The notes beneath the pieces are model-generated. The model did not search any database. It was not told where the DNA came from and saw only the letters and a program-made list of their open reading frames with translations. DNA of 64,000 bases from Arabidopsis thaliana (lineage: Eukaryota; Streptophyta; Magnoliopsida; Brassicales; Brassicaceae), in assembly GCF_000001735.4 (NCBI RefSeq), contig NC_003070.9:4278001-4342000 (forward strand), written 5' to 3'. Shown in pieces: positions 16,591-59,609 of the stretch (within the stretch, counting starts at the first letter, position 1; each line of letters begins with the position of its first letter). The position numbers were made by a program, and so were the translations under genes.

Positions 16591-16882
16591 TTTCTTCTAA
16601 TTTTGTTTTTTGATAGCGATGGTGTGTTTAAGCTACAAATTATATCATTTACCTATACATATTTGTGCAGAATTTAGCAAGTACAATCTGAAAAGCAATG
16701 TAGACAGATGAACAGAGTGATAAGGAAATTATGAGCTTGCTTTCATGCCCGGAGAATGGTTATAAATCTTGGTGGTCGATCTGCTTAAGAAAAATGTTGT
16801 GTACATCAATGTTGTCACATATGAAACTCCAACTTAGTCTTTCAATGCTCTGAGACGGTAATATGATGTAAACACCAAAATT

Positions 16883-32968: not shown

Positions 32969-33457
32969 ATGTTGGTGGCAGTAATGATAGTGATGGTGAT
33001 AGGGAACCTTCTGGCTCAGACAGCGGCTCAAAAAATCCCATTTAAAGAATGTTATCCAGCTTGTCTTGTGGAGTGTAAAGCTGGTTCAAAGTTTCCAAAG
33101 TATCTTAAGTGTCCATTTACGTGTACCAAAGAATGTCTTCAACAACCTTCTCCACCATCTGTTTCTTCAAACAATATCGATGAATCTGATTATTTCTGCA
33201 AACTCGGATGTGCAACTTATCATTGTGTTTCTCTTTCTTCCATCCAAAATCCGAGTAAGTTTATACTTCTTCTAAACAATTTTTACATTGTAAATCTTAC
33301 CCATAACGGTGTTTACAAATCGATGACCATATATATATAGTTGAAATGAGATTGTAACGTTAAATGGTTTTGGTTGGTGTTTGTGTTATGGACAGATGTG
33401 GAAAGAGTATCAGCATGTGTGGATTCATGCTCAAACAAGTGTACCAAGAAAAACTAG
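32969..33457 (+). CDS. Thionin-like secreted peptide, array copy 2
   Basis: Exons 32969-33254 and 33396-33457 encode 115 residues. The signal peptide is MLVAVMIVMVIGNLLAQTAA, then CYPACLVEC, CPFTCTKEC, FCKLGCATYHC and, in exon 2, CVDSCSNKC. The start is taken at 32969. An ATG at 32944, at the position used by the other copies, is in a different frame, so the signal peptide begins a few residues later than in the neighbours. The cysteine pattern is complete. It probably corresponds to AT1G12663. Confidence 0.78.
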
Positions 33458-34397
33458 AAGCGTTGGTACTAGGAGAATTCATGTGTGAAAAAAGGATCTG
33501 AAGACTGGGCCAAAAGCCCATTCATAATTTGGGTTAACTATTGAAATTTAATTACTAAAACAAACTAATGAATTATAGTACTTTCCTTTTTTTTTTGTAA
33601 CTGTGTATCCTTTGGGCTTAAAGCCCATTCCCAGTTTGGGTTGATTAATAATATTTTATTATATAAAAAAAGATATGAACAAGTTTGTATAATTCAGTTT
33701 TTAAATAACGAATTTTTTTTTGGCCGACAAAAAATAACGAATTTTTTATTCAATATATTTTGCTACAAGAAATCAATTGATATAAAAGGAAAACAAAGCT
33801 GAGTTAAAAAAAAATCAAAGGAAAACAAAAGCTAAAATGAAGGAGATAATACTATTTACAATTGAGGAAATAAAAAAAAGATGCACGTATATAATCTAAT
33901 GATACAGAGTCACAGAGAGTATTATAATACTCAAGTAATCTGTATAAAATATTCTACCAATAAATAAAAAATTTAGAATGAAAGAAGAATAATATAATAA
34001 AGTAGTTATGTAAATTTAGCAAATTATATTATGAATTTAGTAAAACAAAATCTATTTTTATTAGGAGAATGGATTTTATATCTTTAAACAAAATTGTTTA
34101 TTGAATTTATGGAAATGAAAACACTAAAAAAGAATATGATATTAGTGTTTGATTTCATAAAATAATAGTATAGAGAACTCCAGATTGTAAATGAATGGAA
34201 TTAAATAATTACCCACCATGGCTTTGTAACACAAAAGTTATAGCTTAATATCTTATTGATTGTGAATATGTTAACTAATATAGAAATTTGCATTATCCCT
34301 ATATAAACAAGCCATGTTAACACAACCAACTTCACAATTAACAAACAATTACATCTACAAATATAAAATCTTTTCTTCTTTCTCCCTAAAAAAAAGA
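33458..34397. other. Spacer between thionin-like copies 2 and 3
   Basis: An AT-rich spacer with no gene. GGGCCAAAAGCCCATTC-type sequence near 33506 recurs in altered form near 33615 (GGGCTTAAAGCCCATTC), each followed by GTTTGGGTT-like DNA. A repeat-flanked micro-insertion lies at 33703-33747. A TATATAAAC box about 100 bases before 34398 fits the promoter of copy 3. Confidence 0.45.
33703..33747 (+). repeat. Micro-insertion GGCCGAC flanked by 16-bp direct repeats
   Basis: AAATAACGAATTTTTT is present at 33703-33718 and 33732-33747. Only TTTGGCCGACAAA lies between. The GCCGAC next to A residues matches the insertion at 62541-62587 in the reverse orientation. Confidence 0.5.
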
Positions 34398-34823
34398 ATG
34401 GAGGGTAAAAGCCTAGTTGCGATTTTGGTGACAATGATGGTGATAGGAAACCTTCTTCCTCAAACAGAGGCTCAAAAGATACCTTTTATGCAATGTTTTC
34501 CAGCTTGTATGATAGTGTGTAAGAGTGAGTCAAAGTTTCCAAAGTTTCTTACTTGTCCAATAACATGTCTCAAAACATGTCTTCATCCTCCGTCTCCGCC
34601 TCCTTCCCCGCCCCCGTCTCCTTCTCCTTCTCCTTCTCCTTCTCCTTCTCCTTGTGAGAACAATTGAAAATCCAAGTAAGTTTTCACTTTTCGTGTATAT
34701 ATATGTAAATTTGACATTTAATCAAGTGTTGTCTTTGTGGTTTTTGTTGTGTTGTGGACAGATGTGGAGAAAGCCGCAGCTTGTGTTGATATATGTTCGA
34801 ACAAGTGTTTCAACAAGAACTAG
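34398..34823 (+). CDS. Thionin-like peptide with proline-rich insert, array copy 3
   Basis: A signal peptide (LVAILVTMMVIGNLLPQTEA) is followed by CFPACMIVC and CPITCLKTC. A proline/serine repeat (PPSPPPSP, then SPSPSPSPSP) comes next, encoded by a CCTTCT microsatellite at about 34600-34653. If the GT of GTGAGA at 34654 serves as the 5' splice site and exon 2 starts at 34762, the frame stays open and ends in CVDICSNKCFNKN, giving 105 residues. Without splicing it ends at 34667 after CENN. The YCxLGCA block found in copies 1 and 2 is not present. Probably AT1G12665, but splicing is my inference. Confidence 0.6.
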
Positions 34824-35857
34824 CGACATTTTTTTTTTTTTTATCAAAGTAATGATTCAATAACCATATATGCACCAATAATATGTAACGAATGACCTTT
34901 CAAATTAAATAAGTATTATATACATTTTTATTTGATATTTTTTGCATTACAAACGAATTAATTCATAGAAAGGTCAACCCAATAGATAGCTAAATTACAC
35001 GATCCTTATAAAGTAATAGTATTTCAGACATGAATAAAAGTCACGTTATTTTAAAATAACATGCTTAAGTTTATATAATGTCGCAGTTTGGATCCCACAT
35101 ATGATCTTAAGAAAAATGAATTACAAAAATATAATGATGACACACAATTTAAGTGGTTGACTTCAATGAGAGACCTGCGTATAGTTTTTTTTTTGTTATT
35201 GCGGATTTTACTAAAATCAAAATTCGAGCGAAAATTAAGCATATATCGAAAATACCAATTTTTTACCGCATCTAACATACCAATAAATAGCTTTATAATG
35301 AAATGAAATGTGTTCAACTAGGTTTGTTTTCCAAAATTTTAAATTGATTTTTCGCTTCGATATGGTTTGGTTTCGAACTTAAAAGATAATTAAAAATAAA
35401 TCAAAATACTTTCATTCATATGTAGTTAAATAAGAAATAGTACTACATAAACTTTGATGAAATGCACTTACATATACAATATTACTATATGAACACACAT
35501 ATGACAAATCCATTCATGTATTTAAAATGAAGAAGTATGGAAAGAGATGTATACATATTAGGTTACTGTACGATTTTGTGTCATATATATATATATAATA
35601 GTAATATAATATAATATAACAATCTCTAGATTCTGAATTGAAAAACAGTCACTAGACTAGTAATGAATGGAATTAGATTTAATTACCAACCATTGTCACA
35701 GAAAAATCACAAATAATTGGCTGCTGATTATGAAGATGTTAACGATACCGACAAAGTAACATAATTCCATATAAATAGACCCTTGTTACACAAACAAACA
35801 ATCAAAATCATCAAACACTTTCAATCGCTTTTTTCTAATAATTTCTGTACCTTCAAA
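34824..35857. other. Spacer between thionin-like copies 3 and 4
   Basis: A 1-kb AT-rich spacer with no gene. The stretch at about 35330-35820 resembles the upstream region of copy 1 (30400-30890), including the TATAAATA box and the ACACAAACAAACAATCA leader, so copies 1 and 4 share promoter ancestry. Confidence 0.5.
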
Positions 35858-36440
35858 ATGGAGAACAAAAGAATGGCCATGTTAGTGGTAACCTGATGGT
35901 GTTGGTGATGGGGGACATTTTGATTGAGAGAGAGGCTATAGGTTTTACTGTATGTTACACTCCTTGTGTTGTGGTGTGGTAATTCTGCACACGTAATCAA
36001 AACAGTTTTATGTCGTTTCACGTGTATCAAGGATTGTAAATATCTCTTTATCAAAAAATAGGATTGTATGCATCCTACACCTTCTTCGGAGGCAAATCCA
36101 ATTTTTTTTTTTACTATCATTTCTGCAAACTCGGATGTGCTACCAATCGTTGTATTTCATTCTCCTCAATCAAAGATAAGGGTAAGTTTTCAGTTCTTGT
36201 ATAAATATATTTAATATATAAAAAGTTTACTTTAATCTTTGTGAGTCTAAGGATACCATGCATGTAGATTTCTTAACAGTAAGAATGTTTGATGATTTTT
36301 TTTTATGACTCAATTAATTTTATCGTGTGCGATTCTAATTAATTTTCATATGGTTATTTGATTTATATATGAGCAGATCATGCGGAGAAAGTTTCATTAT
36401 GCGTGGATACATATTTAGAGTAATGCGCCCACAAGAACTA
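35858..36440 (+). pseudogene. Thionin-like fossil, array copy 4
   Basis: Sequence similar to copy 1 over both exons and the intron, including a signal-peptide-like start and a segment like the second-exon end (HAEKVSLCVD). Several breaks interrupt it and no long frame survives. It is a decayed tandem copy. Confidence 0.75.
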
Positions 36441-37465
36441 AAACCCATACCTGTTCAGGTGTATCACCAGTAGGTTTTATCGATAAATTATTTTCCATCC
36501 AAAATAAATAGATTAAAATGATAAAGAACACGATGTTTAACAAGAAGAACTTTGCAGATTCACCAATGTACTTCAGGTACATGGATCTAATTGTGTTTAA
36601 CATATATTCCGACCGTACATTTTACCCATTATATTGACATACAACGAATTACTAGTTTCGTACAATTGTATTATTGTAAAATATCTACAGTTTCCAATTT
36701 TAGAGAAAAACTTAGGGAGGGATTAATACATCTAATTTTGATTTTATGAGTATAGAGAAATTGTATTCCATTCTTTCCTCCAAAATAAGAGTAAATTTCA
36801 CCTTTTTTCTTACAAAGTTTCATTAAATTAAACATTTAATCATGTGAATCATCTCCATGTCCTAATAGTGAATACGTAGTGAAGAACGACATTTACATCC
36901 ATAACAAAATGTACACTAATTTGATCATTCAAAACTAAGAATGTTTGAAGTTTTAACCAAAATGTGTTGGACTAAAACACCGCATGTATATGTTTATGTC
37001 ACGCATCTTTACAATCTCATATTCGTTTCTATCGTGTGCAAATACTCTCGATGGAATTTTTTTCACTTAGGTTTCGGTCCGGACGCCTTACCAATACGTT
37101 TGACTATTGAGTTTGTAGAGAAGTATATGATATGGGCAGTGGTGGAGATAGAACTTGTATATACAGAGGTCAAAATGTAAAAAGAATTATAGTGATCAAT
37201 TTAGTTATTGAATTGGTGTCAATTTAAAAAAATAAGCCAAAAATTAAGTAATTTCAAAATTCTTCGGAAAATAAATATCTAAATGGGAAAAAAATATTCA
37301 TCGATCAAAATATTTTACACATCGATTTGTTGTTGCCTATAAAAATGGTTATTTATACAGAAGATTACACAATCCCTATATAAACAAAAAAACGTCACCA
37401 CAAAAATATAATCGCAATAATAAAGAATTGCATCACGTATTATAACAATCTCTTAATTCAGAAAA
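36441..37465. other. Spacer between thionin-like copies 4 and 5
   Basis: An AT-rich spacer with no gene. A TATATAAAC box lies about 90 bases before 37466, as in the other copies. Confidence 0.4.
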
Positions 37466-37987
37466 ATGGAGAGCAAAAGAGTCGCGATGTTGATGAATCT
37501 TATGATAGTGATGGTAATGGGATGTCTTCTGGTTCAGACAGAGGCTAAGTCTAGCCATTTCAAACTTTGTTACTCAGACTGTCATGCCGTGTAAATCTCA
37601 TACGACATTTCCAAAGTCTCTTTTGTGTCCATTCACATGTCTCATGACTTGTCTTGTTCCTACTCTACCAACTCCTTCTCCTGCTTCTGATACGAGTTTA
37701 ACAAACAAAATCGATCATACTGAAAACCTTTGCAAACTCGGTTGTGCTACTCATCATTGTGTTTCTCTTTCTTCTCTCCAAAATCCGAGTAAGTAATTAT
37801 ATTTTAATTCTCATATGCAACTTCTCTGTGGCGCCGCTACAATCTTAATTTATATGATGATTGCAGATTACTAAGATTATGTATTTATATGGTTTTGTTG
37901 TTTTTGGTGATATGGACAGATGTAGAGAAAATTGCAACTTGTGTGGATTCATGCTCAGAAAAATGTTCTAAAGAGATGAAAAAGTGA
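37466..37987 (+). pseudogene. Thionin-like fossil, array copy 5
   Basis: This copy has a well-kept signal peptide region, first and second cysteine blocks, the intron and the CVDSCSEKC end, but the frame is interrupted, by about one break. It looks like a young fossil. A partial product from 37584 is possible but would lack the signal peptide. Confidence 0.65.
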
Positions 37988-38700
37988 TATTATTATTATG
38001 TTAAAAATCGACATAGTATATTATTAAACGGAATATATGAAATTATTGATTTGTATTGTGCGATATTAAAACAAAATGAGTGGTTTTCCTTTTTTTTTGC
38101 AAGTCAAATGAATATTTACTCCTTTATTTAATTAATTTTGTTACTTGCAAAATTAATCGATACATAAAACTATGAACCAAAAAAATAAAAATGAATAGTA
38201 TTTAAAATTCAACAGAACACAGCCTTGACAATTTAGAGGCTCCAAGTATATAAGATTAGTCTTTGCGCTTATATCTTTTAAAGAAAATTAGTTGTTGATT
38301 CAGAAAATAAGAAAAAAACGATTTTTTCCAAAGAAAACAATTGCCTTGCTTTTCTATTTTTTTTCTTCACGGCTCACAGCTGTATACAGCACAAGTCAAC
38401 AGATTCATGACACCTAGAAAAAAAAAGAATAAAACAGATTCATGTATTTAAGTAAATATATGAGAATAATATCATCTTCAAAATGAAAATGGATGGATTT
38501 TTTTTTTGTTACCATTATCGAATTATCTCACCATAATTACACCTTATATTATTGTTGACTGTAGATATCTTAACTAATATAGAAAATCTAGAGTCCATAT
38601 ATAAACAAACAATAACAACACATGTTACCACCAGTCACAAGTAACACACATCTGCCTCAAATTTTATAATATTCTTTGTAGACAAAAAAAAGAAAAAAAT
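37988..38700. other. Spacer between thionin-like copies 5 and 6
   Basis: From about 38220 the spacer is repeated with small changes at 39850-40374 upstream of copy 7 (shared GACAATTTAGAGGCTCCA, CACAGCTGTAT and ATATATAAACAAACAATAAC strings). No gene is seen. Confidence 0.5.
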
Positions 38701-38961
38701 ATGGAGAGCAACAGAATGGTGATGTTTGTGACAATGATGATAGTGATGGTAATGGGAAACCTTCTGATTCAGACAGAAGCTGATGCTCCACCTCAAGCTC
38801 AATCTTCTGGTTTCTTAACTTGTTACCCAGGTTGTGTTGTGTCTTGTTTCGTTGAGAAGAAATTTCCACAATTTTTGTTGTGTCCATTTACGTGTATCGG
38901 GACTTGTCTTCCTAGTTCTTCACAGATGGTTTCAACAAACAAAATCAATAATACTCCATAA
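38701..38961 (+). CDS. Short thionin-like peptide, array copy 6
   Basis: An 86-codon frame with a signal peptide (VMFVTMMIVMVMGNLLIQTEA), then CYPGCVVSC and CPFTCIGTC, ending soon after. The signal peptide is almost identical to that of copy 7. It is shorter than copies 1 and 2 and has no intron. It is either a reduced six-cysteine peptide or a copy on its way to loss; I cannot tell which from sequence alone. Confidence 0.5.
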   Translation: MESNRMVMFVTMMIVMVMGNLLIQTEADAPPQAQSSGFLTCYPGCVVSCFVEKKFPQFLLCPFTCIGTCLPSSSQMVSTNKINNTP

Positions 38962-40374
38962 GCTGTGTGGATTCATGCTCGGACAACTGCTCCACCAAGA
39001 ACTAATAGTGATATCAACTACTTTTTGTTGTAATAAAGTACCGATCTTAATGGTATGGACCATTTCGTTTGTATATCAGTATGATGAATATTTATGTCAC
39101 AAACAAATCGGTTAATAAAACTCTTTCTCCGTATTAATAGAAATAGATGTATATTAATTCTAAATATCTAATTTATTTTCTCCTTTATGAGAAAACAAGA
39201 CGTGGAACTTCTTCAGAAACCTGAAACCCCCAAACAACCTCAAGGGCACAACACAACAACAACAAATTTTCTTTCCTCAAAACATTCACTTTTCTGACGT
39301 CTCCTCGCTTCATCATCTTGATCATCTCGATCCCAATATCCACAAAAGTGTGTATGGCTTTGTATCACTCCTCGACGTTTTAACTAAGCTTGTTATCGCT
39401 TGCTATGTGCCTAAGCTCATCTGCTGAAAAGTATGGAGCAGCTTCACAAGTTGGGGATCATATGATTAGAAGTGTACTGACACCGGAATTGATGGATTGC
39501 AGAACATTGATTTGCGGGCTCTATGATTACGGAGAAAACGAGAGAGCAAATGCAGTTATCCATAAGCTGCTTCAGTGTGGGAAGTACTACGATGATGAAA
39601 TAGCTTGGACAATCCTCACTGAAATAGCATGTTAATTGTTTTTTAACAAAACTCATAAGGAAACGTAAACCAAAATTTCCACTAACGTTTTTAGAGCATT
39701 GTTTATCAACTAATATTATCTATACTAGTGTTATTGTTATGCCACCAAACCAGAAAATTGTGTATAATCAAATATGTGCGACTAACAGATTATTTTTTTT
39801 AATACACATTAGTCTACTTTTTTGTCAAAATTAAAAAATATAATCAATAGAGCCGGACCCTGACAATTTAGAGGCTCCAGGTAGATAAGATTAGGCTTTG
39901 TTCTATTTTTTTTAGAAAATTAGCTGTTTTTTTTCAGAAAATAAGAAAAAATTTGATTTGTTTTTCAAAGGAAACAATTCCCTTGTTTTTCTATTTTTTC
40001 TCGGCCCACAGCTGTATTCAGCACAAGTGAACAGATTCATGACACCTCTACAAAAGAATAAAACATATTCATGTAATTTAGTAACTGTAATTAAAAAAAG
40101 GCTGTAATTTTACGTTAATGCATATTTATATGCCATAAACAGAATAATATCATACTCACATCAAAAAATGAATGGGGGATTTTTTTTATATCCATTATCG
40201 AATTATCTCACCATAATTACACCTTATATTATTGTTGACTCTAGAAATGTTAACTAATGTAGAAAATCTAGAGCACATATATAAACAAACAATAACAACA
40301 GAGACCAGTCACAAGTAACACACAACTTCCTCAATTTTTATAATATTCTTTGTAGACAAAAAAAAGAAAAAAAT
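38962..40374. other. Spacer between thionin-like copies 6 and 7
   Basis: A 1.4-kb spacer with the PPR scrap (39390-39635) in the middle. The right part (39847-40374) repeats the upstream region of copy 6. Nothing else is seen. Confidence 0.45.
39390..39635 (+). pseudogene. PPR-gene C-terminal scrap
   Basis: An 81-codon frame with MDCRTLICGLYDYGENERANAV-like PPR sequence and an end in DDEIAWTILTEIAC, typical of the C-terminus of a P-class PPR protein of a different subfamily from the RFL genes nearby. Nothing upstream continues it, so it is an isolated fragment between thionin-like copies 6 and 7. Confidence 0.55.
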
Positions 40375-40871
40375 ATGGAGAGCAACAGAATGGTGATGTT
40401 TGTGACAATGATGATAGTGATGGTAATGGGAAACCTTCTGATTGAAACAGAAGCTGATGCTCCACCTCAACCTTCTCCTTTTAAAACTTGTTACCCAGGT
40501 TGTGTTTTGATTGTATCGTTCAGAAGAAATTACCAAAGAATTTGTGGTGTCCAGTTTCCTGTATCAAGACTTGTCTTGAACCTCCTTCTTCACAGATGGA
40601 TTCCACAAACGAAATCAATCATAATGATTATTACTGCAAACTAGGTTGTTCTACTCATCACTGCGCTTCCCTTTCCTCTATCCAAAATCCGAGTAAGTTT
40701 CTTTTGTATAAGATTATATATGGTCTTTTTTGGTTTATTGACATTTATCAACATAAGATTACTGTATTTATGGTATTTTTGTGTTGTTGTTTGTGGCATG
40801 ATGGAGCAGATGTGGACAAAGTTGTGGACTGTGTGGATTCATGCTCGGACAAGTGCTCGAACAAGAACTAG
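40375..40871 (+). pseudogene. Thionin-like fossil, array copy 7
   Basis: The signal peptide and promoter nearly equal those of copy 6. Both cysteine blocks, the intron and the CVDSCSDKCSNKN end are recognisable, but the frame is interrupted, by about one break. Likely a recent duplicate that has lost function. It falls at about AT1G12672. Confidence 0.6.
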
Positions 40872-42122
40872 AAGTGATATTAACTACGTACTCTTTATTG
40901 TGCCACAGTACCGATCTGAATGATATGAACCATTTAGTTTATGTATCATTACGATGAATTTTTGTGTACCACAAGCAAATCGATCGGTTAATAAAACTAT
41001 TTCCCCATCTTAATAAATCCACCAAGAACTGATATATAGCCATATTAACTACTTTTCCCTTTTTTCTTGTAATAAAATATTGACAATTAATTTATTTTTT
41101 TACAATTATAATTAACACTAGGTATGATCGTATAAGATATATTGAATCAATGATAAGATAATTAATGTATTAGAGAAAGAGACAAGGAGTCTTTGTGGAA
41201 TATTTTACAGTAAGACTTGGTGAGTAAATTAATGGTTTCAGTTGTTCAAAGGAATATTTCGCTATCTCTCTACGCCTCGATCTCCATCTATGTATATACA
41301 AGGATTCTGTTTATAACAATGTATTATTTTAACAAAATAGGTAAATTTCAAAGTATAATCATTCTTTGTTTAAACATCGAAGAAGGTATCACAAGTCTAG
41401 GTAATCTTAACTAATAAGTGAAATTTCTGATGCTTTGTTCATATTTGCAAGTCTTAACATGTCTTATAATCTGGTTTACATTGTAAGGTGAAATGCTGAA
41501 AAGTGAAAATGAGTGCACATCTTGATCCACAATGTCAAAACTTAAAAGACAATGATTTTGTACTAATACAATAATTTTATAATTGATCCATTGTCAAAAT
41601 TGAACCCAGGCCCGGCCCATAAAAGAAACAGAGTTGTGGACCTTGTGGTCAACTTTTTCCCCCTTTTTTTAGGTTAATCGGAAAACAATTGTTTGTTTTT
41701 GGAAGCGAAAATCGAACTAGAAAACACAACCTTTTAAGGCTAAACATCTACTTTTCTGACAAAAAAAGACTCAATGTTATGTGCCTGATGTTTTACCGTA
41801 TAATATTTGTTATTTTCCTACACATTGTTTCGTTACTGTTGTAAGTAACGATCTGGTATTTGCATTTGTTTAGACACGTTTTTTTACTTCCAAAATTTTA
41901 TGAAGGGACTAGAAACAACACCTTATAACTCCGATCCAAATCGGATCAATCATTTGTTTAGCATATTCTATTTACATGATCTGTACATGGTCAAAGTAAG
42001 AGATATAGAAGAGGAAAAAACACAGAATCATATCACCAACTATTATAACAGAAAGGTCACTAAGATCGTGGAGAAACCATAGCTTGTCGCTTGGACAATG
42101 CCCATCTGCGTTTGTGGTTTTG
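40872..42122. other. Intergenic gap before PEPKR2
   Basis: A 1.25-kb AT-rich gap between the end of the thionin-like array and the 3' end of PEPKR2. No supported gene. A 60-codon frame at 41900-42082 has no recognisable motif. Confidence 0.4.
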
Positions 42123-44269: not shown

Positions 44270-45099
44270 CAAACCAGCCAACAGATAACGAATATCAGAA
44301 TCACTTACATAAGAAAACAACAGGTCTTCTCCTGCAAAATCAGAACAAGCGAATCAATCATCAAAACCAACTGCAGAAACAAAAATGCTATAGAGCCAAT
44401 CAAAAGTTTAGTACATAAAATGTAGCCAAAAAGCCAATTTCCAACACACACACAAAAGAGAAAAACCAAAAATTTACTCCACCGATTACAGAAATGTTTA
44501 CATAAAACTTCACAAGTACAATCTAGAAAGCAATGCAGAGAAGAGTATGAAAATAAAAGACGCAACTTCAATGACTCTACCCAGAGATTTTCGCGCGAAA
44601 TCCATAACTTTTTTTCCGGAAAAAAGAAAGAATGCTAGATCGAAACAGCAAAAAACCAATACTTAATCCTTGAATCAAAGTACAGAAAGAGGATCAAGCT
44701 CAAAAATTAGGGAAGGTAACGAACCTCCTTTCACCGATCAGAAAAGAGTGATGGAACCTAATGAATCGAATCGAGACGAAATTTCCGATTAAGAAATCAG
44801 AGAGGGAAACAATAGCACGAAAATTGAATCAATAGATGTTGATGAGCAGCGAAGATCGAAGAGGAGAAACCCTAGCAATCTCGATGAAGCGCAATATTTG
44901 GGGACGAAAAAGCTAAGCCCAAATCATGCAGATAGATCTTCGTTTAGAGATGTTGAGAGAGATTGTGTGATATATATATCTCTGAACCGGTACAATGTCG
45001 ATAATTAGAAACCGGTTTATCTTAAACCTTCTCCTTCTCGATTTGGCCAATGAGTTTTTTGTTTTTGCGTCTTTCTTTAATATTTTGAGGATATCATCA
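44270..45099. other. PEPKR2 upstream region
   Basis: This holds the 5' leader and promoter of PEPKR2, with probable leader introns (AG near 44323). No other gene is seen up to the PPR scrap at 45100. Confidence 0.4.
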
Positions 45100-45260
45100 G
45101 GATCACACCCTTTGGTAACCATCAGATCCAACATCTGGTTGGCCTCATCTAGGCGATTCTCCTTGCAAAACCCATCTATCAAGGAACTATATGTAATAGT
45201 ATTAGGAGCTATACCTCGTTGAATCATCTCCTTGTGTAGTTCTTCGGCCTCTCGAAGTTT
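45100..45260 (-). pseudogene. Rf-like PPR scrap (about 1.5 repeats)
   Basis: On the minus strand the sequence reads KLREAEELHKEMIQRGIAP, then SLIDGFCKENRLDEANQML. It is almost the same as the matching part of the PPR gene at 16883-18748 (KLREAEELHKEMIQRGISP). The similarity stops abruptly at both sides. It is a short fragment of an RFL gene next to RPF1. Confidence 0.75.
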
Positions 45261-45635
45261 TAGTCACGCAAATGAAAAAAATATGTCAGCTAATACTCAG
45301 ATTTATGGCATTATGTAAATTCAATAATGGTTTCAGATGTTCTTTAGTGAAGCACACCAAGCACAATGTATGTTTCGGATACATCATCAGCTCCCTAACC
45401 AATATGTATATGAACTCATTGCATTTGATATTTTCATAAAGATACTACAAGTCACTGCCCTGAATAGAAGCAATTTCCTAAATAAATTCATGTCATTCTG
45501 TAAATTTAACACTCGTTATTTTCTTAGTGTATAGTCCAGTACAATTAGTATGTTTCGTTGTATTAGAAATAAATAAATAAGAAAGTTCTGAATTTAATTG
45601 GTTATAAAAAGAATCTGCAAACTAGAGTAAAATAG

Positions 45636-46036: not shown

Positions 46037-46418
46037 CTAAACAAAAATCAAAGTGTCAGGGATTTGGTTTTAGAGTATGCATGGAACAGAAAACATTTAA
46101 CTGCAAAATTTAGAAAATAAAAGAGAAGAGATACCATTTTGAGAAGATGTCAAGGCAAACGGACAAACATTTTAACAAAGGTTAAGCTACTAAGCCTGAT
46201 TTTCTCTGAACCGCTTAACTCCAGGAGATCTTGTCGGCTCTTTGAACCTGCCAAGTGCCAACACAAAATCACGAGTTTCTGAGTTTTTAGTGATCAATCA
46301 GTTTAAAAACCTGCTTAGTAGATCAAATATTGGCACACATAACTAACCTTTGCTAAGACAATATCTGAGTGTTAACCTTTTCATTGCTCTAAGACAATAA
46401 TTAAAAACCACCAAACTG

Positions 46419-48227
46419 TTACGAAAGCATATCTAGAAAGCTTTTGTCCAATTCACCACTCAATAACATATCGATAACCATCTTAATACTGGAAGCATCT
46501 GCTGAGAACCCACAACTCTTCATTTCTTCAATAAGTTTAGCTGATGCAGTTAAGTCACCATCTCGGAGATGTGCCCGGATTAGTGTGTTGTATGTACAAT
46601 CATTTGGCGCATTCCCATCTTCCTCCATTTTTCTAAGCAAGATGTTTGCTTCAGACAGTGACCCTTTCTTACATAATCCTGAAATCATCACGGTGTATGT
46701 CATAACATTAGGCTTCACTCCTTTACAAGGTAGGCTACAGAATAAATTCCAGGCATCTTCCACTTTTCCACCCTTGCACATCCCCTCGATGATGGTTGTA
46801 TACATAACAATACCAAGATCCATCTTACTCTTTTGTAAATCCTCAAAAATTTCCAATGCCTTTTCAAGCTTCCCATTGTCACACAAGCCATCAAGCAAAA
46901 TACCATACGTCATAACATCAGGAAGAACACCGTGTGAAACCATTTCTTGGAAAAGTTCCTCTGCGAGCTTTATTTTCCCGGATTGACAAAACCCTTGGAC
47001 AAGAATGCTATAAGTAACTGCATTGGCAACCAAGCCTCTCTTAGAAATATTGCGGAAGACCTTCATACCATCGTCAACTCTTTTCACCATACAATATCCT
47101 TTGATGAGACTTGTAAAAGTCACGATATCAGGACTGCACTTATTCCTAACCATAAGATCCAACATATTGTTGGCCTCACTAAGACGGTTCTGCATACAAT
47201 ACCCATCCATCAAGGTATTATAAGTAATAATATTAGGTGATATACCTCTTGTGATCATCTCTTTGTACAATTCATTAGCCTCCTGAAGCTTCCCTTCTTT
47301 GACAAAAACATCAAGTAATACATTGAAAGTGATGACATTAGGGACGATTTCCCTACTCACCATATCCTTCAACAACAGTGCCCCATCATTCCATTTACCG
47401 GCTTTACAAAGACCTCTCACAAGAGAATTATACGTAACAACACTAGATTTAATCCCTTTCGTCTCCATTTCCTTGAAAAGGCTAATTGCAGCGTCTATGC
47501 AACCATCTCTACAAAGACTATCAATGATTGTACTGTAAGTAAACACATCAGCCTTAACATTTCTTTCTTCCATCTTTCTGAGCAAATCCAAGGCCAAAGA
47601 AGTATCTCCTGATCTACATATCCCATTTACAATCGAATTATAAGTAACCACATCAGGTTGACATCCGTTTTCCACCATCCTATCGACTAAAACCACAGCT
47701 TCAGACACTTTACCCTCAAGAAAGAGTCCTTTGATCAGAGTGTTAAACGTGGTTGTGTCAGGCTCATACCCAAGCTTCATTACTTTTCCCAAAACAGAAT
47801 AAGCAAAACAAGTTTTACAACACCGGCAAAAGCAGTTGATCATGATATTCAAAGTGTAGATGTTATGAGCAATCCCATTCAATTCCAGTTGCTTGCAGAA
47901 ATCTAACACGAGATTGAACTGTTTTGTTCTGGCAATGGCACTAAAGAATCTACTGAAATCAACAAGACTAGGAAGAGGACGAGACCTAATCATTTCTTGG
48001 AACAGAGCAATAGCATCATCTTTCTTAATATCAACAATACCACTTCTCAATCTCTCTCTGAAACAGACATTCCCATTGCTAATACTTGAAAAGTCTCGTT
48101 CGCAGCTAGAAAAGAAACTCGAAATGGTACAGAGCAAATCAGTTCTAAGACTACCTGTCTTCAAGAGATGAGGCTGAATCAATCTCAAAGCCTTCATATT
48201 TGTAGTAATCGATCTCTTTATCATCAT
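46419..48227 (-). CDS. RPF1: Rf-like PPR protein RNA PROCESSING FACTOR 1
   Basis: A single-exon frame. From ATG 48227 it encodes 602 residues; the same frame stays open to an ATG at 48314 (631 residues). I prefer 48227 because the residues after it (MIKRSITTNMKALRLIQPHLLKTGSLRT) look like a mitochondrial presequence. About 15 P-class PPR repeats follow, for example PDVVTYNSIVNGICRSGDT and PNVITFNVLLDVFVKEGKL. Published work shows that AT1G12700 (RPF1) is needed for 5'-end maturation of mitochondrial nad4 mRNA. My assignment rests on the locus and family. It is a close paralogue of the PPR gene at 16883-18748. Confidence 0.88.
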   Translation of the reverse strand: MMIKRSITTNMKALRLIQPHLLKTGSLRTDLLCTISSFFSSCERDFSSISNGNVCFRERLRSGIVDIKKDDAIALFQEMIRSRPLPSLVDFSRFFSAIARTKQFNLVLDFCKQLELNGIAHNIYTLNIMINCFCRCCKTCFAYSVLGKVMKLGYEPDTTTFNTLIKGLFLEGKVSEAVVLVDRMVENGCQPDVVTYNSIVNGICRSGDTSLALDLLRKMEERNVKADVFTYSTIIDSLCRDGCIDAAISLFKEMETKGIKSSVVTYNSLVRGLCKAGKWNDGALLLKDMVSREIVPNVITFNVLLDVFVKEGKLQEANELYKEMITRGISPNIITYNTLMDGYCMQNRLSEANNMLDLMVRNKCSPDIVTFTSLIKGYCMVKRVDDGMKVFRNISKRGLVANAVTYSILVQGFCQSGKIKLAEELFQEMVSHGVLPDVMTYGILLDGLCDNGKLEKALEIFEDLQKSKMDLGIVMYTTIIEGMCKGGKVEDAWNLFCSLPCKGVKPNVMTYTVMISGLCKKGSLSEANILLRKMEEDGNAPNDCTYNTLIRAHLRDGDLTASAKLIEEMKSCGFSADASSIKMVIDMLLSGELDKSFLDMLS

Positions 48228-48979
48228 TATTTCTTCAGCTGAGTTGTTTGTTTTTGCTCTGTAACCTACAAACATCCATGGAGACGGAAGAGCTTTGGGA
48301 GAAAAAAAAGACAACCCGGTTCAATCATCCTTTATCTATAAACCGGTTTACTTTTATTCGTTTTAAATCAAATTCCGGAATCGCTCTGATCTATTACTCT
48401 GTGAAACTATACTTCCCCACCAAATGAATGTTAGAGCATCTCCATCAGTAGTATTGGTTTCTTAAAAACTAAAAAATATAAAATAATAATAAAATAGGAG
48501 AGAGGAGTGAAAAAAGTTTCTCTGCAAATAAACTATGAGATACTCCTCGTGTCACATGTCATATTTTAATAGGTTAAATTATTATTTTCGGAATAATTAT
48601 TTAAATAAATAATAATATTATATGATAATAATTAAAAAACAATATTTTGAGATACTCCACCCAATTCTACCGATGAAGATGGGCTTAGACCATAACATGT
48701 ATCCAAAGATATAAATGTAAATAAAGTAGACACTTAAATGGATCTGAAGTTAAACTTTGTAACGATTAATCATTCTTAACGTAACTAATAACAAGTTATA
48801 ACAGATGGTTTAGTTTCATAACCACAACATATTATTACAGTTTGCCTCAAAACTCAATGAAGTTACAAAACAAAAGCTCTCTAAATAGAAGCTCTAACTA
48901 CATCTATAGAAGGGGCTAAAGACCTGCATAACAAAAAACCCTGCTTTAACCTCTCACTAAACCGGATCCGGTTGAAACA
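48228..48979. other. RPF1 upstream region with MITE
   Basis: This gap holds the RPF1 leader (with upstream in-frame ATG 48314), a 251-bp Harbinger-like MITE at 48434-48684, and the 3' untranslated end of PP2-A12. No other gene is seen. Confidence 0.5.
48434..48684. mobile_element. PIF/Harbinger-type MITE
   Basis: The left end GAGCATCTCCATCAGTAG matches the reverse of the right end (GCCCATCTTCATCGGTAG) over about 25 bp. TTA flanks both sides (48431-48433 and 48685-48687), the target size of PIF/Harbinger elements. The 251-bp interior is AT-rich and non-coding. It sits about 200 bp upstream of the RPF1 start. Confidence 0.75.
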
Positions 48980-51885: not shown

Positions 51886-53639
51886 TTCATATTTAGGAAA
51901 AAATGTAGTTAAATCCCCCAACTTTCAAAAAATGGCCAATCAATACGTCAACTTAGATGGAAGCCATTTAAAACATCAACTTACAGTTGACTAACAAATA
52001 AAACATGAACTTTGCGTTGACGAGGCCACATTATACGCGTCGTTAAGTCGATTAACAGACCCAATAAACGACGTTTTCTCCCGTTAGTATCTCTCTGTTA
52101 GTCAAGAAACGGTGACGTTTAGAGGTTAATAGAAACCCAATTAGGGCTTTGTCGAGAAGAAATTCCCAAATCAAATCAAATTCATTCTTCCCCAAATTGC
52201 TTTTGTTCTTCCCCAAATCAAAAACCCTAAATTATCGACGAGTGTTAGTGGATGCCATTAGTTAGACTCAACGGCATCATATCGACGATTGGGTCACCAA
52301 TGGAAGACGACGAGTTAGAGAGTTCTGTACCTGTAGTTGCTCCACCGGCGGAAGTCATTTCAGAGTCAGGTGGAGGAGATGGAGGAGTAGAGGCAGCTGC
52401 TGTTGATAACAGAAGAGTTTCTGGACGTCGTCGGACAGGAAGTAGAGTCAGAGTCGTAGAAGATGATGAGCCTGAAATTGATCCCGAGCTTGAAATTGAT
52501 CCCGAACCGGATTTGGAAGATGATTGCGCCGTGTATGGTGATGACGATTGTGATGTTGTTGATGATGCAGTAGCTGGTGAAGGCAACGAAGATAACGTTG
52601 TTGAAGAAGATGCTAACCTCAACATTGCAGATGATTTTCCCGAGGCTTATAGAGCAGATGAAGAAGCTGGTTCTGATTCCGACACCGGAGATGATATCTG
52701 GGATGACGAAAAGATCCCAGACCCTTTGTCATCTGACGACGAAGATGAGGTTGTTAGAGTCGGAGAAGAGGCAGTTTGTGGAGATGAAGACGATCCAGAG
52801 GTTTTGCTAGCTATAGAGAAAACTTTCAACTCTCCGGATGACTTCAAGCGTGCAGTATTGATGTACTCTTTGAAGACAAGGTATAACATCAATTTCTATA
52901 GGTCTGAATCATTAATGGTTGCTGCTAAGTGTTGCTATGTAAATGAGCTAGGTGTTAATTGTCCGTGGAGAGTCTTATGTTCATATGAGAAGAAGAAGCA
53001 TAAGATGCAAATAAGAATTTACTTCAACGAGCATATATGTGTGAGGTCCGGTTATACAAAAATGTTGAAGCGGTCTACCATTGCAGCTTTGTTTGAGGAA
53101 AGGCTGAGAGTTAATCCAAAGATGACAAAATATGAGATGGTTGCTGAGATAAAGAGAGAGTACAAATTGGAAGTAACTCCAGATCAGTGTGCTAAGGCGA
53201 AAACCAAAGTTCTAAAGGCAAGAAATGCTAGTCATGATACCCATTTTTCAAGGATATGGGACTATCAAGCAGAGGTATTAAATCGGAACCCAAACAGTGA
53301 CTTTGACATCGAGACAACTGCGAGAACGTTTATTGGAAGCAAGCAGAGGTTTTTTCGCTTGTATATATGTTTTAATTCTCAAAAGGTTTCATGGAAACAA
53401 CATTGTAGACCAGTCATAGGCATAGATGGAGCGTTTTTGAAATGGGACATAAAAGGTCATCTTCTTGCTGCAGTTGGAAGAGATGGTGATAATAGGATTG
53501 TTCCTCTAGCTTGGGCAGTGGTAGAAATAGAAAACGATGATAACTGGGACTGGTTTTTGAAGAAACTGTCTGAAAGTTTAGGGCTTTGTGAAATGGTGAA
53601 TCTAGCTTTAATTTCAGATAAGCAATCGGTAAGCAATCA

Positions 53640-53830
53640 AGCTTTAGTTTAAGCTTTATTCGTGTTTATGCTTCAGTTTGTATTCTTTGTTTAGTTTCAG
53701 CTTTTATTCATGCTTTAGTTTCAGCTTTATTCATGCTTTAGTTTCAGCTTTATTCATGCTTTGTTTAGTTTCAGCTTTTATTCATGGATCACTTTCAGCT
53801 TTTATTCTTGGTTTAGTTTCAGCTTTTAAT
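53640..53830 (+). repeat. Tandem minisatellite in transposase intron 1
   Basis: Units of about 20-26 bp built on TTTAGTTTCAGCTTTATTCATGC recur seven or eight times with small changes and fill nearly the whole 231-bp intron. Confidence 0.8.
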
Positions 53831-54840
53831 GATGGATTCATATTTCTGTGATTTTTCAGGGTCTTGTCAAAGCAATCCATAATGTACTGCCACAAGCGGA
53901 GCATCGCCAATGTTCTAAGCACATAATGGATAATTGGAAGAGGGACAGCCATGATATGGAGCTACAACGTTTGTTTTGGAAGATATCCCGCAGTTACACC
54001 ATAGAAGAGTTCAACACTCATATGGCGAATCTAAAGAGCTACAATCCTCAGGCTTATGCATCTCTGCAGCTTACTAGTCCTATGACCTGGTCAGAGCCTT
54101 CTTTCGAATAGGTACCTGCTGTAATGACAACCTAAACAATTTGAGTGAGTCTTTTAATAGGACTATTAGACAAGCCAGAAGAAAGCCGTTATTGGATATG
54201 CTAGAAGACATCCGGAGGCAATGCATGGTCAGAACTGCAAAGAGGTTTATCATAGCTGAGAGGTTAAAGTCAAGATTTACTCCGAGAGCTCATGCTGAGA
54301 TTGAAAAAATGATTGCTGGTTCTGCAGGTTGCGAAAGACATTTGGCGAGAAACAATTTGCATGAGATATATGTGAATGATGTTGGATACTTTGTTGATAT
54401 GGATAAAAAGACTTGTGGTTGCAGGAAATGGGAGATGGTTGGAATCCCATGTGTTCATACACCATGTGTGATAATAGGCAGAAAAGAAAAGGTTGAAGAC
54501 TATGTTAGTGACTACTACACAAAGGTAAGATGGAGAGAGACATACAGAGATGGTATTAGGCCTGTCCAAGGAATGCCATTGTGGCCTAGAATGAGTAGGT
54601 TGCCTGTCTTACCGCCACCTTGGAGAAGAGGCAATCCTGGAAGACAAAGTAACTATGCTAGAAAGAAAGGAAGATATGAAACAGCCTCTTCTTCAAACAA
54701 GAACAAGATGTCACGGGCTAATCGAATAATGACATGCTCTAATTGTAAGCAAGAAGGGCACAACAAGAGCTCATGTAAGAATGCTACTGTCCTGTTACCA
54801 CCACCGAGACCAAGAGGTCGACCAAGTCTAAATCAGGTTA

Positions 54841-54925
54841 CACTTCTTTTACGTTTCAGATTCTCAACAAGAGCTTCATTGAATTATGTACGTTTCAGAT
54901 TCTCATCAAGGCTTCATTGAATTAG
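54841..54925 (+). repeat. Duplicated 38-bp unit in transposase intron 2
   Basis: TACGTTTCAGATTCTCA...GCTTCATTGAATTA is present twice in a row. Each copy has a TTTCAG acceptor-like site, and the second ends at the AG used before GAACCACAAGG. Confidence 0.7.
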
Positions 54926-55499
54926 GAACCACAAGGAGCACAATCTTATCAAGAACAAGCAGTTTCAGGTCATGGATCACAAGAACAAGCAGCTTCGGGT
55001 CATGGATCACAAGGACATGGTTCACAAAGACATGGATCACAAGAACAAGCAGCTTCTGGTCATGGATCACAAGGACATGGGTCACAAGGATCAAGAGCTC
55101 ATGGACCGCAGAGACAAAGGGCATCACAAAGACAAAGATCAAGAGCTCATGTTAGATCAGAAGCACAAGCACAATCTCAACCACAAGCGCAAGCCCAAGA
55201 ACAAAGACTTGCTGGGTTAGAATCATGGTTTAATTGTTCATCTCAGCTCTAATTGTAGTATTTCTGTGACATTTGCGTTTTTTTTTGTCAAAAACTTAAG
55301 CTTTGCCTCAGGGTTTTTTGGTTGTTTGAACTTAAGCACTTCTCTTGTTGTTTGCTTCTTGTTAAACTTTGAAGAAGATAACCTATGTTTTTGTTGTTTG
55401 GTTCTTCTTGTATGCAAACACATGATCTAGAAAAACATCACACTCATTTTCATTACGATAGTAAAATACAAACACAAAGACAAAGAACAAAACGTTGCA

Positions 55500-56033
55500 C
55501 TAGTAACCAAGAACAAGCTTTTGTTCTTTGGTATTACCGAACATTATCATACCAACCACAATCACAATGACAATAAAACCAAGACACACCAAGCAACATT
55601 TGATCATCCGTTTCCAATTCTTGATTTCCCTTTCGCTACACATAGCTTCTTCCTTTACTTCTTTTATCATAGTCTTCAACTGCTCAATCTCGATTGCAAC
55701 CTCACATTTGGCCTTCATTATCTCACTGTCAATGCTGGAGATTTTTGGTAAAGCCTCTACAACCTCTTCGTACACGCCATATTCAACCCATTTAAACAAA
55801 TGATCCTGTTTTCAATCGGAAATCAATTACCAACCAAACCAAAAAGACACAAACTCAATTCAACTTACATCTTGTTTCGTTGGACACCGAAAGAATGGCC
55901 TTCCAGGATTCGACTTTGAAGCTGAAGTATAGATGACGACCTCCAAACCACAGTGACACTTCGAAGCTAAGCCACGTCCCCAACAACCTCCGTCTAGAAT
56001 ACTAGGATAAGAATTTCCAGATTTGCAGCTCAT
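55500..56033 (-). CDS. GRF zinc-finger protein with C-terminal membrane segment, inside the MULE
   Basis: Exon 1 (56033-55869, exactly 55 codons) and exon 2 (55805-55500) encode 156 residues. Residues about 17-52 form a GRF-type zinc finger: CWGRGLASKCHCGLEVV, then SNPGRPFFRCP. A coiled-coil stretch follows (KAKCEVAIEIEQLKTMIKEVKEE), and near the C-terminus a hydrophobic helix (CCLVCLGFIVIVIVVGMIMF). This architecture is common among plant GRF proteins of unknown function. The gene starts about 110 bp inside the right TIR and is convergent with the transposase gene, in the position of mudrB in maize MuDR. It is either captured host sequence or a genuine second MULE gene. GRF fingers bind single-stranded nucleic acid in other proteins. 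Confidence 0.8.
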
Positions 56034-56401
56034 TTCTTCAGCTTTTGATGGAGAATTTGGAGAAAAAGCAGAGAATTTGGAGAAGAAGAAGAGAATTAGG
56101 GAATTAGGGATTTAAAGTATTGGATTTGGGGTTTTTTGACAAACAATCGGGTTTCTATTAACCTATAAACGTCACCGTTTCTTGACTAACAGAGAGATAC
56201 TAACGGGAGAAAACGTCGTTTATTGGGTCTGTTAATCGACTTAACGACGCGTATAATGTGGCCTCGTCAACGCAAAGTTCATGTTTTATTTGTTAGTCAA
56301 TTGTAAGTTGATGTTTTAAATAGCTTCCATCTAAATTGACATATTGATTGGCCATTTTTTGAAAGTTGGGGGATTTAACGACATTTTTCCCTTCATATTT
56401 A

Positions 56402-56674
56402 TTAGTTACGGGCCCTAAGCCCGTACCCATTCATAGCCCAACAATCTATTTTAGGATACAGAAATGACAAGTTTCGCTAATTCACACACAAATGATAAGC
56501 TTGGCTAATTCATACACAAACTAATTTAATTAGGCTAAATCATACATTGAACAAAAGTATTCTTCCGATTAGTTTACCAAATATATTATTTGGTTCGTTT
56601 GAAATCTCTTATATCACGGTTTAATAACGCCGTGGTATTCACTGTTACGACTAGCTCGCCGGAGAAGAAGAAGA
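56402..56674 (+). promoter_or_regulatory. Short upstream region of PIG-U
   Basis: Only 273 bp lie between the MULE target duplication and the PIG-U ATG. GGGCCCTAAGCCCG and AGCCCAACA (site-II/GCCCA type elements) near 56410-56440 fit a housekeeping promoter. Confidence 0.45.
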
Positions 56675-59609
56675 ATGAAGGAGGAGAAGAAAGACGACGG
56701 AGTAATGGCTGAGGAGAAGCCTTACATGTTCTGGATTTGGACTTTGGCTTCTACGATTTTCCGATTATTCCTGATCTTTTCCCCGGCAAATATCAACCTA
56801 TCTTCCCGTCCGGAGGTCTCCACCCCTCACACCAGCCTTCGCCGCCGTACCGCCTCTCTCTCTCTCTCTCATCCTCCTCGCTCTCTCATACAATCTCTAT
56901 TCCATAATCTCGATTCCGCTTACGATTCTGCGTTTGTTTTTGAATGTTTTCAGTTGCTGAAGGTTACTGGTTGAAGCAGTCATCACTGTCGCCATACGCA
57001 GGTTTGTGATTGATTCGTCTATCTACATATGAGAATTTGAAATTCCACTATTGTGCAAGTTAAAATCGTGGTGTACTTGTTTCTTCTTCTGGTCAGGATC
57101 AATGTATCATGGCTCTCCATTGCTACTCTCCATTCTCGGTCCTCTCACAGTTCAGAGGTAGAGTGAATGTTAATCTATTCAAAGTTCAGTTCTTGAGCTT
57201 AGTTTCTTAGGGTTCTCGCATTGTATAATTTGAGCCAAAGTGACAAGTTTGTTGTTGCAGGATCGAAGGGCAATCGAGTCATCATTTGTGCAGGTATTTA
57301 TGATTATACATGTATAAGTTAGATTAAGAAATTGTATAAGTGATCAAGAGTTGTAAGTAACTTTGTGATTTTTTTTGGAATTAGTGATCAAGAGCTTTGT
57401 AGTCATGCGGATGATACCAACAATCTTCTGGATACAGTTTGGTTTTTGTTATTGCAGATTTACTTAGTGCACTGCTTCTTCGAGCTATTGGTCAGAAGCT
57501 CCAGAAGTCTTATAGAATGAATTTGAGGCCACTTGGTGTTCTTAGGTCATCGCAGGATAGAGGTACACTTAAGTTATTCGACTATGAGAACTTAGTAGTA
57601 TAACATATGGATTACAATATTTTTGGGAATCGATGTTTAGTCTGATTCCTTGTATATTTTTGTTGAAGTTTAACTCTGTGACAATTTGTACAAAATCATA
57701 TTTCTATTTTTTGATCAGAAGGGTATTGCTGATCTCTCCTTTTTTCTGTTTCCCTCAGGGATCCTTCCTTGTGGAGATATTGCTGCTCTTGTGTATCTGT
57801 GGAATCCTTTCACAATACTTTCTTGTGTTGGCTTATCTACTTCTCCAATAGAAAATTTGGCTGTCATTGTGTCTCTTTATGGAGCAGTTACTCGTAAGCA
57901 GTTGTTGGAAAGTGTTCTTTGTATCTATCTTAAATGAAAAACCTGCTTTCGGTTTGTAGTACGCTCATCCCTGTCGTTCTTCTTCTCAACAACTGTCTTC
58001 TACCCTTGCAGGACGAGTTCCTCTGGCTGCATTTGGGTTAATCATGGCCACACATTTGTCTCTTTATTCAGCACCTTTAGTGTTTCCAGTATGCATAATC
58101 TCAATTCCATTTTCATTTTTAATGTATCTCAAAGTTTTTCAGGGGAGTCAGATTCTAATTGCTCTTATGTTTCCTTCAGTTGATCTTTCTGTTGGGATAT
58201 GGTTTAGATGCCCCTCCTATAAAAAAGTTCCTTCAGACAAGACATGGAGGGGTTGAGACTGGATCAACCTCTGATGTTTCTAAACAAGAAAAGTTGACTC
58301 CGACTACACAACTTCCTTTCTCATGGAGAACAGTCTTGCATTTCGTATTTTGGGTATTGGTTTGGTCGAGCTATGTGTTGGTTTTATGCAGCTTATCATT
58401 GAAACAATATGGTGGGCTTGAGGAGATGTTCAAAAGGTACCACTTATCTGTGAAATCTCAATTTATTTGTCATAACCTGAATATCCGTTGTCATATACAG
58501 GAGTATGTATAATTATATTATTATTACAATTTCAGTATTAATGTTGAACATTTTTGTGCTTATGTCTCCTATTGTAGGACTTATGGTTTCATTCTCAGAA
58601 TCGAAGATCTGTCACCAAACATTGGTGTCTTTTGGTAAGTCTAAGTTCAAATCTTTATTGAGCTATGCTAGTTTCTGTATATCTTCACATATTCATCCGC
58701 CTTTTCTATCTCATTTCTCAGGTACTTCTTCGCAGAAGCCTTCGAGTTTTCCAGAAATTATCTCCTGATAATTTTCAACTTATATATTCTCCTTACTTCG
58801 ATACCATCTTTAATGTTCCGGTTAAAACATCGACCCTGCTTCCTTGCTTTCGCTTATTTAGCCTTCACTTCGATTCTTAAATCTTATCCTTCAGTAAGTA
58901 ATTTAACTTCACTATGAAACAATATTGTATCTTTCTTGAAAAAGCTTTCTGTTCATAGAATCTTAAATCTTGAACGTATTCCTTACTCTCATCACTAGGT
59001 TGGAGATGCAGCTTTATACTTGAGTTTATGGGCATTGTTTGTCAATGAATTAACAGGTAGTGAAACAAATTCCATCTCATCTCTTTCAGTATGATCTTGA
59101 ACCGTCATGAACTTTTCACATCTAACTGGGCTTCTGTGTAAACGTTAGACATGGAGTACTCGTTCTTTATCTTCTGTGGATATATCGGATTTTCGCTTCT
59201 CAGCCCTGTGATGCACAATTTCTGGATATGGAGGGTAAAGCTTCAAACTCAACTCCATTCAATCACAATAAAACTTAAAAGAAACCAGAACCCATTTGAT
59301 ATTTTTGGATTTACAGGGAACTGGAAATGCAAACTTCTACTTCGGAAATGCTATGGGCTATGCGTGCTTTCAGGTTAAAAGCCTAAAACCTTGGATCTAT
59401 TTTCGACCTCATTGAGTCGTGAAATATCAACCAAAAGGCTTGTTATTTAGCTTTTAAGGGTCTTATCTTAGTAGTTTGGTTCGTTGTTTACGGGTTTAAG
59501 ATTTTGACTGTATTTATTTCAGTTTATGTTTGTGGAGAAGAGTGTAAACGCAATGCTCAACCACGACCAGGCGCTGAAGAAAGCTACTGCAGAAATGACT
59601 AAGAACTGA
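56675..59609 (+). CDS. GPI transamidase subunit PIG-U
   Basis: About thirteen short exons join into a hydrophobic protein of roughly 470 residues. Recognisable pieces in order are FWIWTLASTIFRLFLIF, SSRPEVSTPHTSLRR, LAEGYWLKQSSLSPYAGSM, YHGSPLLLSILGPLTVQR, FVIADLLSALLLRAIG, LPCGDIAALVYLWNPFTILSC, FLLGYGLDAPPI, TYGFILRIEDLSPNIGVFW, YFFAEAFEFSRNYLL and GTGNANFYFGNAMGYACFQ. These match PIG-U/Cdc91, the multi-spanning subunit of the ER GPI-transamidase that recognises the GPI lipid and attaches it to proteins. Retention of the frame would be lost in intron 1 if unspliced. The start is ATG 56675, with an in-frame alternative at 56705. Corresponds to AT1G12730. Confidence 0.92.

Follow-up and report, generated by a model that had tools for sequence, protein, structure and literature searches.

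A TIR-type Mutator-like element of Arabidopsis thaliana with a frame-broken transposase gene and a convergent gene for a GRF finger protein, possibly a resident accessory gene

The element and its two genes

The window analysed here is a 64,000-nucleotide stretch of Arabidopsis thaliana DNA (NC_003070.9, positions 4,278,001 to 4,342,000), and its feature of interest is a Mutator-like element (MULE) of 4,496 bp at 51896-56391. The element carries two converging genes, one for a mudrA-type transposase on the plus strand and one for a small GRF zinc finger protein on the minus strand, with stop codons 247 bp apart. An original prediction, made without database searches, had described near-identical 247-bp terminal inverted repeats (TIRs), an exact target-site duplication (TSD) and two convergent genes running TIR to TIR in a MuDR-like layout, and all of these are present. 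The TIRs agree at 239 of 247 positions without gaps, six of the eight differences being transitions, and they form the sole inverted-repeat pair in the whole window at a minimum length of 60 and a seed of 14. Both flanks carry TTCATATTTA, identical at 10 of 10 positions and within the 8-11 bp range of MULE duplications (PMC6446971), and the 247-bp length of the TIRs is likewise that of a MULE with long TIRs. With the transposase domains described below, these ends mark a Mutator-like transposon of the TIR type, whose insertion at this site made a 10-bp duplication.

The similarity between the two ends continues inward beyond the TIRs proper as a degenerate extension on each side (52148-52218 versus 56143-56075), for which a local alignment score of 29.0 was obtained, the best of 1000 mononucleotide shuffles being 24.5. 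When TIR and extension are aligned together by blastn, the identity is 88.9% over 324 columns. Since both presumed gene leaders are related in this way, the start of the GRF gene probably adjoins an old, TIR-derived leader.

The transposase gene is divided into three exons (Table 1). Matches to PF03108 DBD_Tnp_Mut (E 1.7e-7), PF10551 MULE (E 9.5e-8) and PF04434 SWIM (E 6.7e-6) are all above their curated Pfam cut-offs; the tail of PF10551 in exon 2 (E 0.037) and a visible CCHC knuckle (13.9 vs 20.8 bits) are below theirs. A further in-frame ATG precedes the listed start of exon 1, at 52252, and the length of the frame is divisible by 3. The donor of intron 1 is GTAAGC at 53629, and intron 2 is 89 nt long with its acceptor AG at 54924-54925.

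The frame of this gene is broken inside exon 2. The opening frame of the exon (GLVKAIHN...) stops at a TAG at 54109-54111, and the continuation (...RIGTCCNDNLNNLSESFN..., followed by the SWIM finger and the knuckle) uses a different frame, open from 54078. By the pattern of the family, the break would fall between the second catalytic Asp, upstream, and the catalytic Glu, downstream. Because the frame is broken at 54078-54111, no complete transposase is probably made by this copy. As many as 87 candidate GT-AG pairs of 60-600 nt could mechanically bridge both frames, each of them removing at least 60 nt (at least 20 residues), and a sequencing error is a possible cause of the break. This copy therefore lacks the intact transposase of an autonomous MULE, which lowers the case for calling it autonomous, not the case for calling it a MULE. 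The transposase gene of the original prediction is thus upheld in its domains but not as a working gene.

The tandem repeat of intron 1 contains the motif TTTCAGCTTT six times on one strand, and neither strand of the 64 kb has the motif anywhere else. In VANDAL elements the targets of VANC form tandem repeats, introns included (PMC5735166). Since VANC binding sites evolve in tandem repeats, those in introns included, the 24-bp repeats of intron 1 are a lead towards candidate cis-sites, and no more. Two other parts of the transposase gene are also repetitive: intron 2 consists mostly (54850-54924) of a 39-bp direct duplication with 94% matching, and exon 3 contains coding repeats of 15, 30 and 60 bp of the GHGSQ type.

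Table 1. Features of the Mutator-like element and its flanks (positions in the window)
Feature	Positions	Strand	Evidence
Left TSD, TTCATATTTA	51886-51895	+	Exact match with right copy
Left TIR, 247 bp, putative promoter side of transposase gene	51896-52142	+	8 mismatches vs right TIR
Degenerate inner extension of left TIR, presumed transposase leader	52148-52218	+	Local alignment and blastn
Transposase exon 1: acidic N-terminus, DBD_Tnp_Mut, first part of MULE domain	52300-53628	+	PF03108 and PF10551 above cut-off
Transposase intron 1, 231 nt	53629-53859	+	GT-AG junctions between open frames
24-bp tandem repeat in intron 1, 193 of 231 nt, about 8 copies, unit TTTAGTTTCAGCTTTTATTCATGG	53643-53835	+	Repeat search
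Transposase exon 2: remaining MULE domain, SWIM finger, zinc knuckle; frame broken inside	53860-54836	+	Pfam matches, junctions checked
Overlap with change of reading frame in exon 2	54078-54111	+	Open-frame analysis
Transposase exon 3: glutamine/serine/glycine-rich tandem repeats, stop TAA	54926-55252	+	Open frame, acceptor AG
GRF gene exon 2: end of finger (HLFKW), H57, helical segment, membrane helix, 11-residue tail, stop	55500-55805	-	Translation, hydropathy, model
GRF gene intron, 63 nt, GTAAGT...ACAG	55806-55868	-	Canonical GT-AG
GRF gene exon 1: start codon, most of GRF finger (C26, C28, C50)	55869-56033	-	PF06839
Degenerate inner extension of right TIR, presumed GRF leader	56075-56143	-	Local alignment and blastn
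Right TIR, 247 bp, putative promoter side of GRF gene	56145-56391	-	8 mismatches vs left TIR
Right TSD, TTCATATTTA	56392-56401	+	10/10 identical to left copy

The GRF gene and its predicted product

Facing the transposase gene, and starting 111 nt from the far TIR, is the two-exon gene for a 156-residue GRF protein that the original prediction had described; joined across the intron, its two exons read without interruption from ATG to stop. An open stretch of 156 codons in a given frame was found in one of 20000 first-order random sequences, a calculation that ignores the choice of splice sites. Codon usage in the gene's own frame scores 0.186 per codon, the highest of the six frames (the next scores 0.095) and above the highest of 500 mononucleotide shuffles (0.179).

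PF06839 Zn_ribbon_GRF matches residues 25-63 of the protein (E 1.4e-6; 28.8 bits, curated cut-off 25.9). The candidate zinc ligands are C26, C28, C50 and H57, in a part of the protein for which the structure model of exon 1 is poor (predicted local distance difference test score, pLDDT, of 53); with His as fourth ligand, we take this to be an atypical CCCH form of the GRF finger. The model of exon 2 consists of two long helices at fair confidence (mean pLDDT 71). These are single-sequence models of the two exons taken separately, each piece including two residues read from the intron.

The C-terminal membrane helix that had been predicted is strongly marked. It covers approximately residues 124-145, and its highest mean hydropathy over 19 residues (3.17, at residue 126) was reached by none of 2000 shuffles. 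The 13 windows of at least 1.6 all begin within residues 119-131; among windows that end before residue 118 the maximum is 0.7. Tail-anchored proteins have one membrane helix only, no more than about 30 residues from the C-terminus, and by hydropathy alone the GRF protein is of this form. Since this is the sole strong hydrophobic stretch and just 11 residues follow it, the GRF protein is expected to be tail-anchored, with its finger in the cytosol or nucleoplasm.

Origin and possible role of the GRF gene

On balance, the GRF gene is probably resident in this MULE family as an accessory gene, not a chance capture, and would encode a tail-anchored helper that binds nucleic acid. In most members of the MUDR group a plant mobile domain (PMD) gene lies antisense to the transposase gene, most MUDRAVI2 members have a PMD gene that is often antisense (PMC6446971 Table 1), and extra open reading frames (ORFs) recur in MULEs (PMC6446971). 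Because opposite-strand second genes recur in plant MULEs, a resident accessory gene is plausible, and together with the architecture of the element this recurrence favours residence. The ORFR of Abermu elements, with a Ka/Ks below 1 (PMC9168764), is a further gene of this kind, and the joint enrichment of GRF-type and transposon domains in Asteraceae (PMC10359422) also counts in favour. Each TIR probably acts as the promoter for one of the two converging genes. The GRF finger might bind nucleic acid or the transposon machinery, and a C-terminal anchor, joined to the finger by a helical stalk, could hold the protein at the nuclear envelope or the endoplasmic reticulum. If so, the anchored GRF protein may act in trans on members of the family, helping copies to reinsert, to be repaired or to escape silencing.

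Several observations weigh against a resident helper gene. The GRF gene keeps its intron, so on that count a captured host gene is equally possible, and the break in the transposase frame does not fit an element with two intact genes. Self-comparison of the 64-kb window by blast gave only the element, its own TIRs and its internal repeats, and no sister element. The codon-usage test is weak, because a strong signature is absent from the position-specific GC content of the GRF gene (0.433, 0.363, 0.420) and the downstream transposase piece scores 0.139 in its own frame vs 0.136 in another. The coiled coil of the original prediction is in keeping with the long helices in the exon 2 model, but its heptad score is reached by 119 of 5000 shuffles and the coil itself is weakly supported.

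The main rival, to which we give a real but minor chance, is a single recent capture, in which a host gene for a GRF and membrane protein, presumably At4g04775-like, was transduplicated in the manner of Pack-MULEs and plays no part in transposition. Genes captured by MULEs are usually fragments, which counts against this origin; the GRF gene here is complete from start to stop, fills the strand opposite the transposase and has its start adjoining the TIR, and the related leaders on both sides suggest an older arrangement. The preserved intron, however, is what transduplication would leave, and GRF genes are annotated as ordinary plant genes, for example Sobic.008G125400 and the GRF genes of peanut. 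In addition, a GRF zinc finger family entry stands among the targets of wheat miR1135, and At4g04775 appears in the gene table of a mildew-response study. The uptake of host genes by MULEs is itself well documented (PMC6446971, PMC13317346 and PMC2528002, the last describing transduplication in grapevine).

The flow of genes may also have run in the reverse direction, a transposon-born GRF family having seeded the At4g04775-like genes of the host, whose copies would then be domesticated or relic MULE genes and the present copy one of many. In Asteraceae, GRF-type domains do rise along with SWIM, PMZ and (retro)transposon domains (PMC10359422), which would follow if many plant GRF genes travel on MULEs, but such co-enrichment is not linkage, and we regard this direction as distinctly unlikely. 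That the GRF reading frame is a relic, decayed or never translated, is highly improbable. The adjacent transposase is frame-broken, and in a copy that is probably not autonomous selection on either gene may be gone; nevertheless the gene retains its open frame and splice sites, its codon usage, the Pfam match and the hydrophobic helix.

A bolder form of the resident-gene reading would posit a eudicot lineage of TIR-type MULEs with a conserved opposite-strand gene whose tail-anchored GRF protein keeps transposon DNA or transposase attached to the nuclear envelope, the At4g04775-like host genes being relics of it. We think this unlikely. If it were true, the GRF protein would help the transposon from a membrane anchor, as no class of helper is known to us to do for DNA transposons, and the TTTCAGCTTT repeats of intron 1 would be candidate cis-sites. 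The original prediction had called a membrane-anchored partner for a transposon unusual; this fits the literature searched (largely without subscription papers), in the available portions of which no GRF gene tied to a MULE was found, but is not proven by it. If the GRF gene is conserved across sister elements, this could explain the expansion of GRF-type domains with transposon domains in Asteraceae, and many uncharacterised plant GRF genes would be transposon genes.

Relatives of the element were also sought in collections that are prokaryotic or viral, and absence there is therefore uninformative on plants. A TIR 33-mer gave 0 matches in viral contigs, a non-plant set, and the TIR was absent from the E. 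coli genomes. The GRF protein gave 2 pattern matches in viral contigs and 12 in prokaryotic genome contigs, none confirmed, and no GRF match was found in 14 control genomes, which say nothing of plants. Transposase exon 1 gave 2 pattern matches in viral contigs, and the C-terminal piece of the transposase gave 21 in prokaryotic genome contigs, none confirmed in either case, and none in plasmids. A sequence search of the PDB gave 0 entries in both cases tried, the GRF protein (E up to 1) and the C-terminal transposase piece (E up to 0.1).

Genomic setting and comparison with known elements

By its gene order, the window presumably corresponds to chromosome 1 near At1g12570-At1g12730, with the element where At1g12720 would be; there is no mention of At1g12720 in the literature searched. 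At 56402-56675, 273 bp separate the end of the TSD from the first ATG of an ORF for a PIG-U-like glycosylphosphatidylinositol (GPI) transamidase (PF06728 17.9 bits, cut-off 24.5), so the element may sit in or near the promoter of that gene. The domains found in ten chosen ORFs of the window are those of a GMC oxidoreductase, kinases, AP2 factors, PPR and F-box proteins and, below cut-off, PIG-U, with one ORF lacking a match. A tandem array of small cysteine-rich proteins, which we take to be thionin-like, occupies 30898-41000, and within it 38630-38799 and 40304-40473 are 96% identical, a likely recent duplication. Two PPR genes (16870-18751 and 46406-48320), approximately 29.5 kb apart, resemble each other over stretches of 73-81% identity; in addition, 45096-45261 holds a PPR-like piece that matches 17591-17756 at 86% identity.

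Among known systems, the VANDAL/Hiun elements (VANA, VANB, VANC) are likewise Arabidopsis MULEs; they have helper genes, and the targets of VANC form tandem repeats, introns included (PMC5735166), as transposase intron 1 does here. VANC-type helpers with targets in tandem repeats are described in PMC13317346 and PMC5735166, with PMC10398659 cited alongside. The ends of VANDAL elements are given either as non-TIR (PMC13317346) or as TIRs of 46-174 bp (table of PMC6446971), and the TIRs here, at 247 bp, are longer. Membership of the VANDAL group is not supported, as Pfam scans of the element pieces gave no VANB- or VANC-type domain, but the TIRs are an ambiguous guide.

In the Abermu type II elements, as in the element here, a second gene on the opposite strand, ORFR, lies between the transposase gene and the far TIR (PMC9168764). 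Abermu elements are also alike in their TSDs, which are of 9 bp; grasses make up 36 of the 38 hosts with complete elements (PMC9168764). ORFR has a Ka/Ks of 0.39-0.56 in three comparisons, yet evolves fast; rice copies without it still appear recently active, and its role is unexplained (PMC9168764). The ORFRs are reported to have no similarity to MURB, and some have none to each other (PMC9168764); the word 'transmembrane' has 0 occurrences in the main text of that paper.

The MUDR, MUDRAVI2 and MDR groups are like the present element in having TSDs of 9 or 9-10 bp, where indicated, and a transposase with a SWIM or CCHC finger; their TIRs range from 30 to 373 bp overall and their second gene is often antisense (PMC6446971 Table 1). 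The term GRF has 0 occurrences in the main text of the same paper. The second gene of these groups encodes a plant mobile domain protein, whereas the element here encodes a GRF finger. No match to the plant mobile domain, whose accession we take to be PF10536, was found in the seven pieces scanned against Pfam, and a PMD identity for the second gene was rejected.

The closest likeness of the GRF protein itself is presumably to the At4g04775-like proteins of eudicots, which we take to share the order of GRF finger, helical segment and C-terminal membrane helix. At4g04775 is an uncharacterised plant protein, named in the available portions of the literature as a gene-list entry and a TAS1-like match, with no MULE tie there. 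GRF or At4g04775 occurs as a gene or domain name without a MULE link in the portions available of PMC11734081, PMC4498041, PMC6059424, PMC6293580, PMC10302846 and PMC5413045, and in PMC9274236 GRF refers to the miR396-targeted GRF transcription factors.

To our knowledge, a GRF finger with a membrane tail has not been described for mudrB, the second gene of maize MuDR. The product of mudrB is MURB, and the equivalence of the GRF gene to mudrB is unproven. In its layout the present element is nonetheless like MuDR, which has two oppositely transcribed genes, one of them for a mudrA-type transposase (PMC9168764), each adjoining its own TIR (TIRA with mudrA, TIRB with mudrB) under separate, TIR-linked control (PMC8224964). 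The function of mudrB is described as unknown, although integration apparently depends on it (PMC6446971). In MuDR-type transposons the part played by the second gene is thus still open, and one with a recognisable domain, a GRF finger with a membrane tail, provides a testable handle on it.

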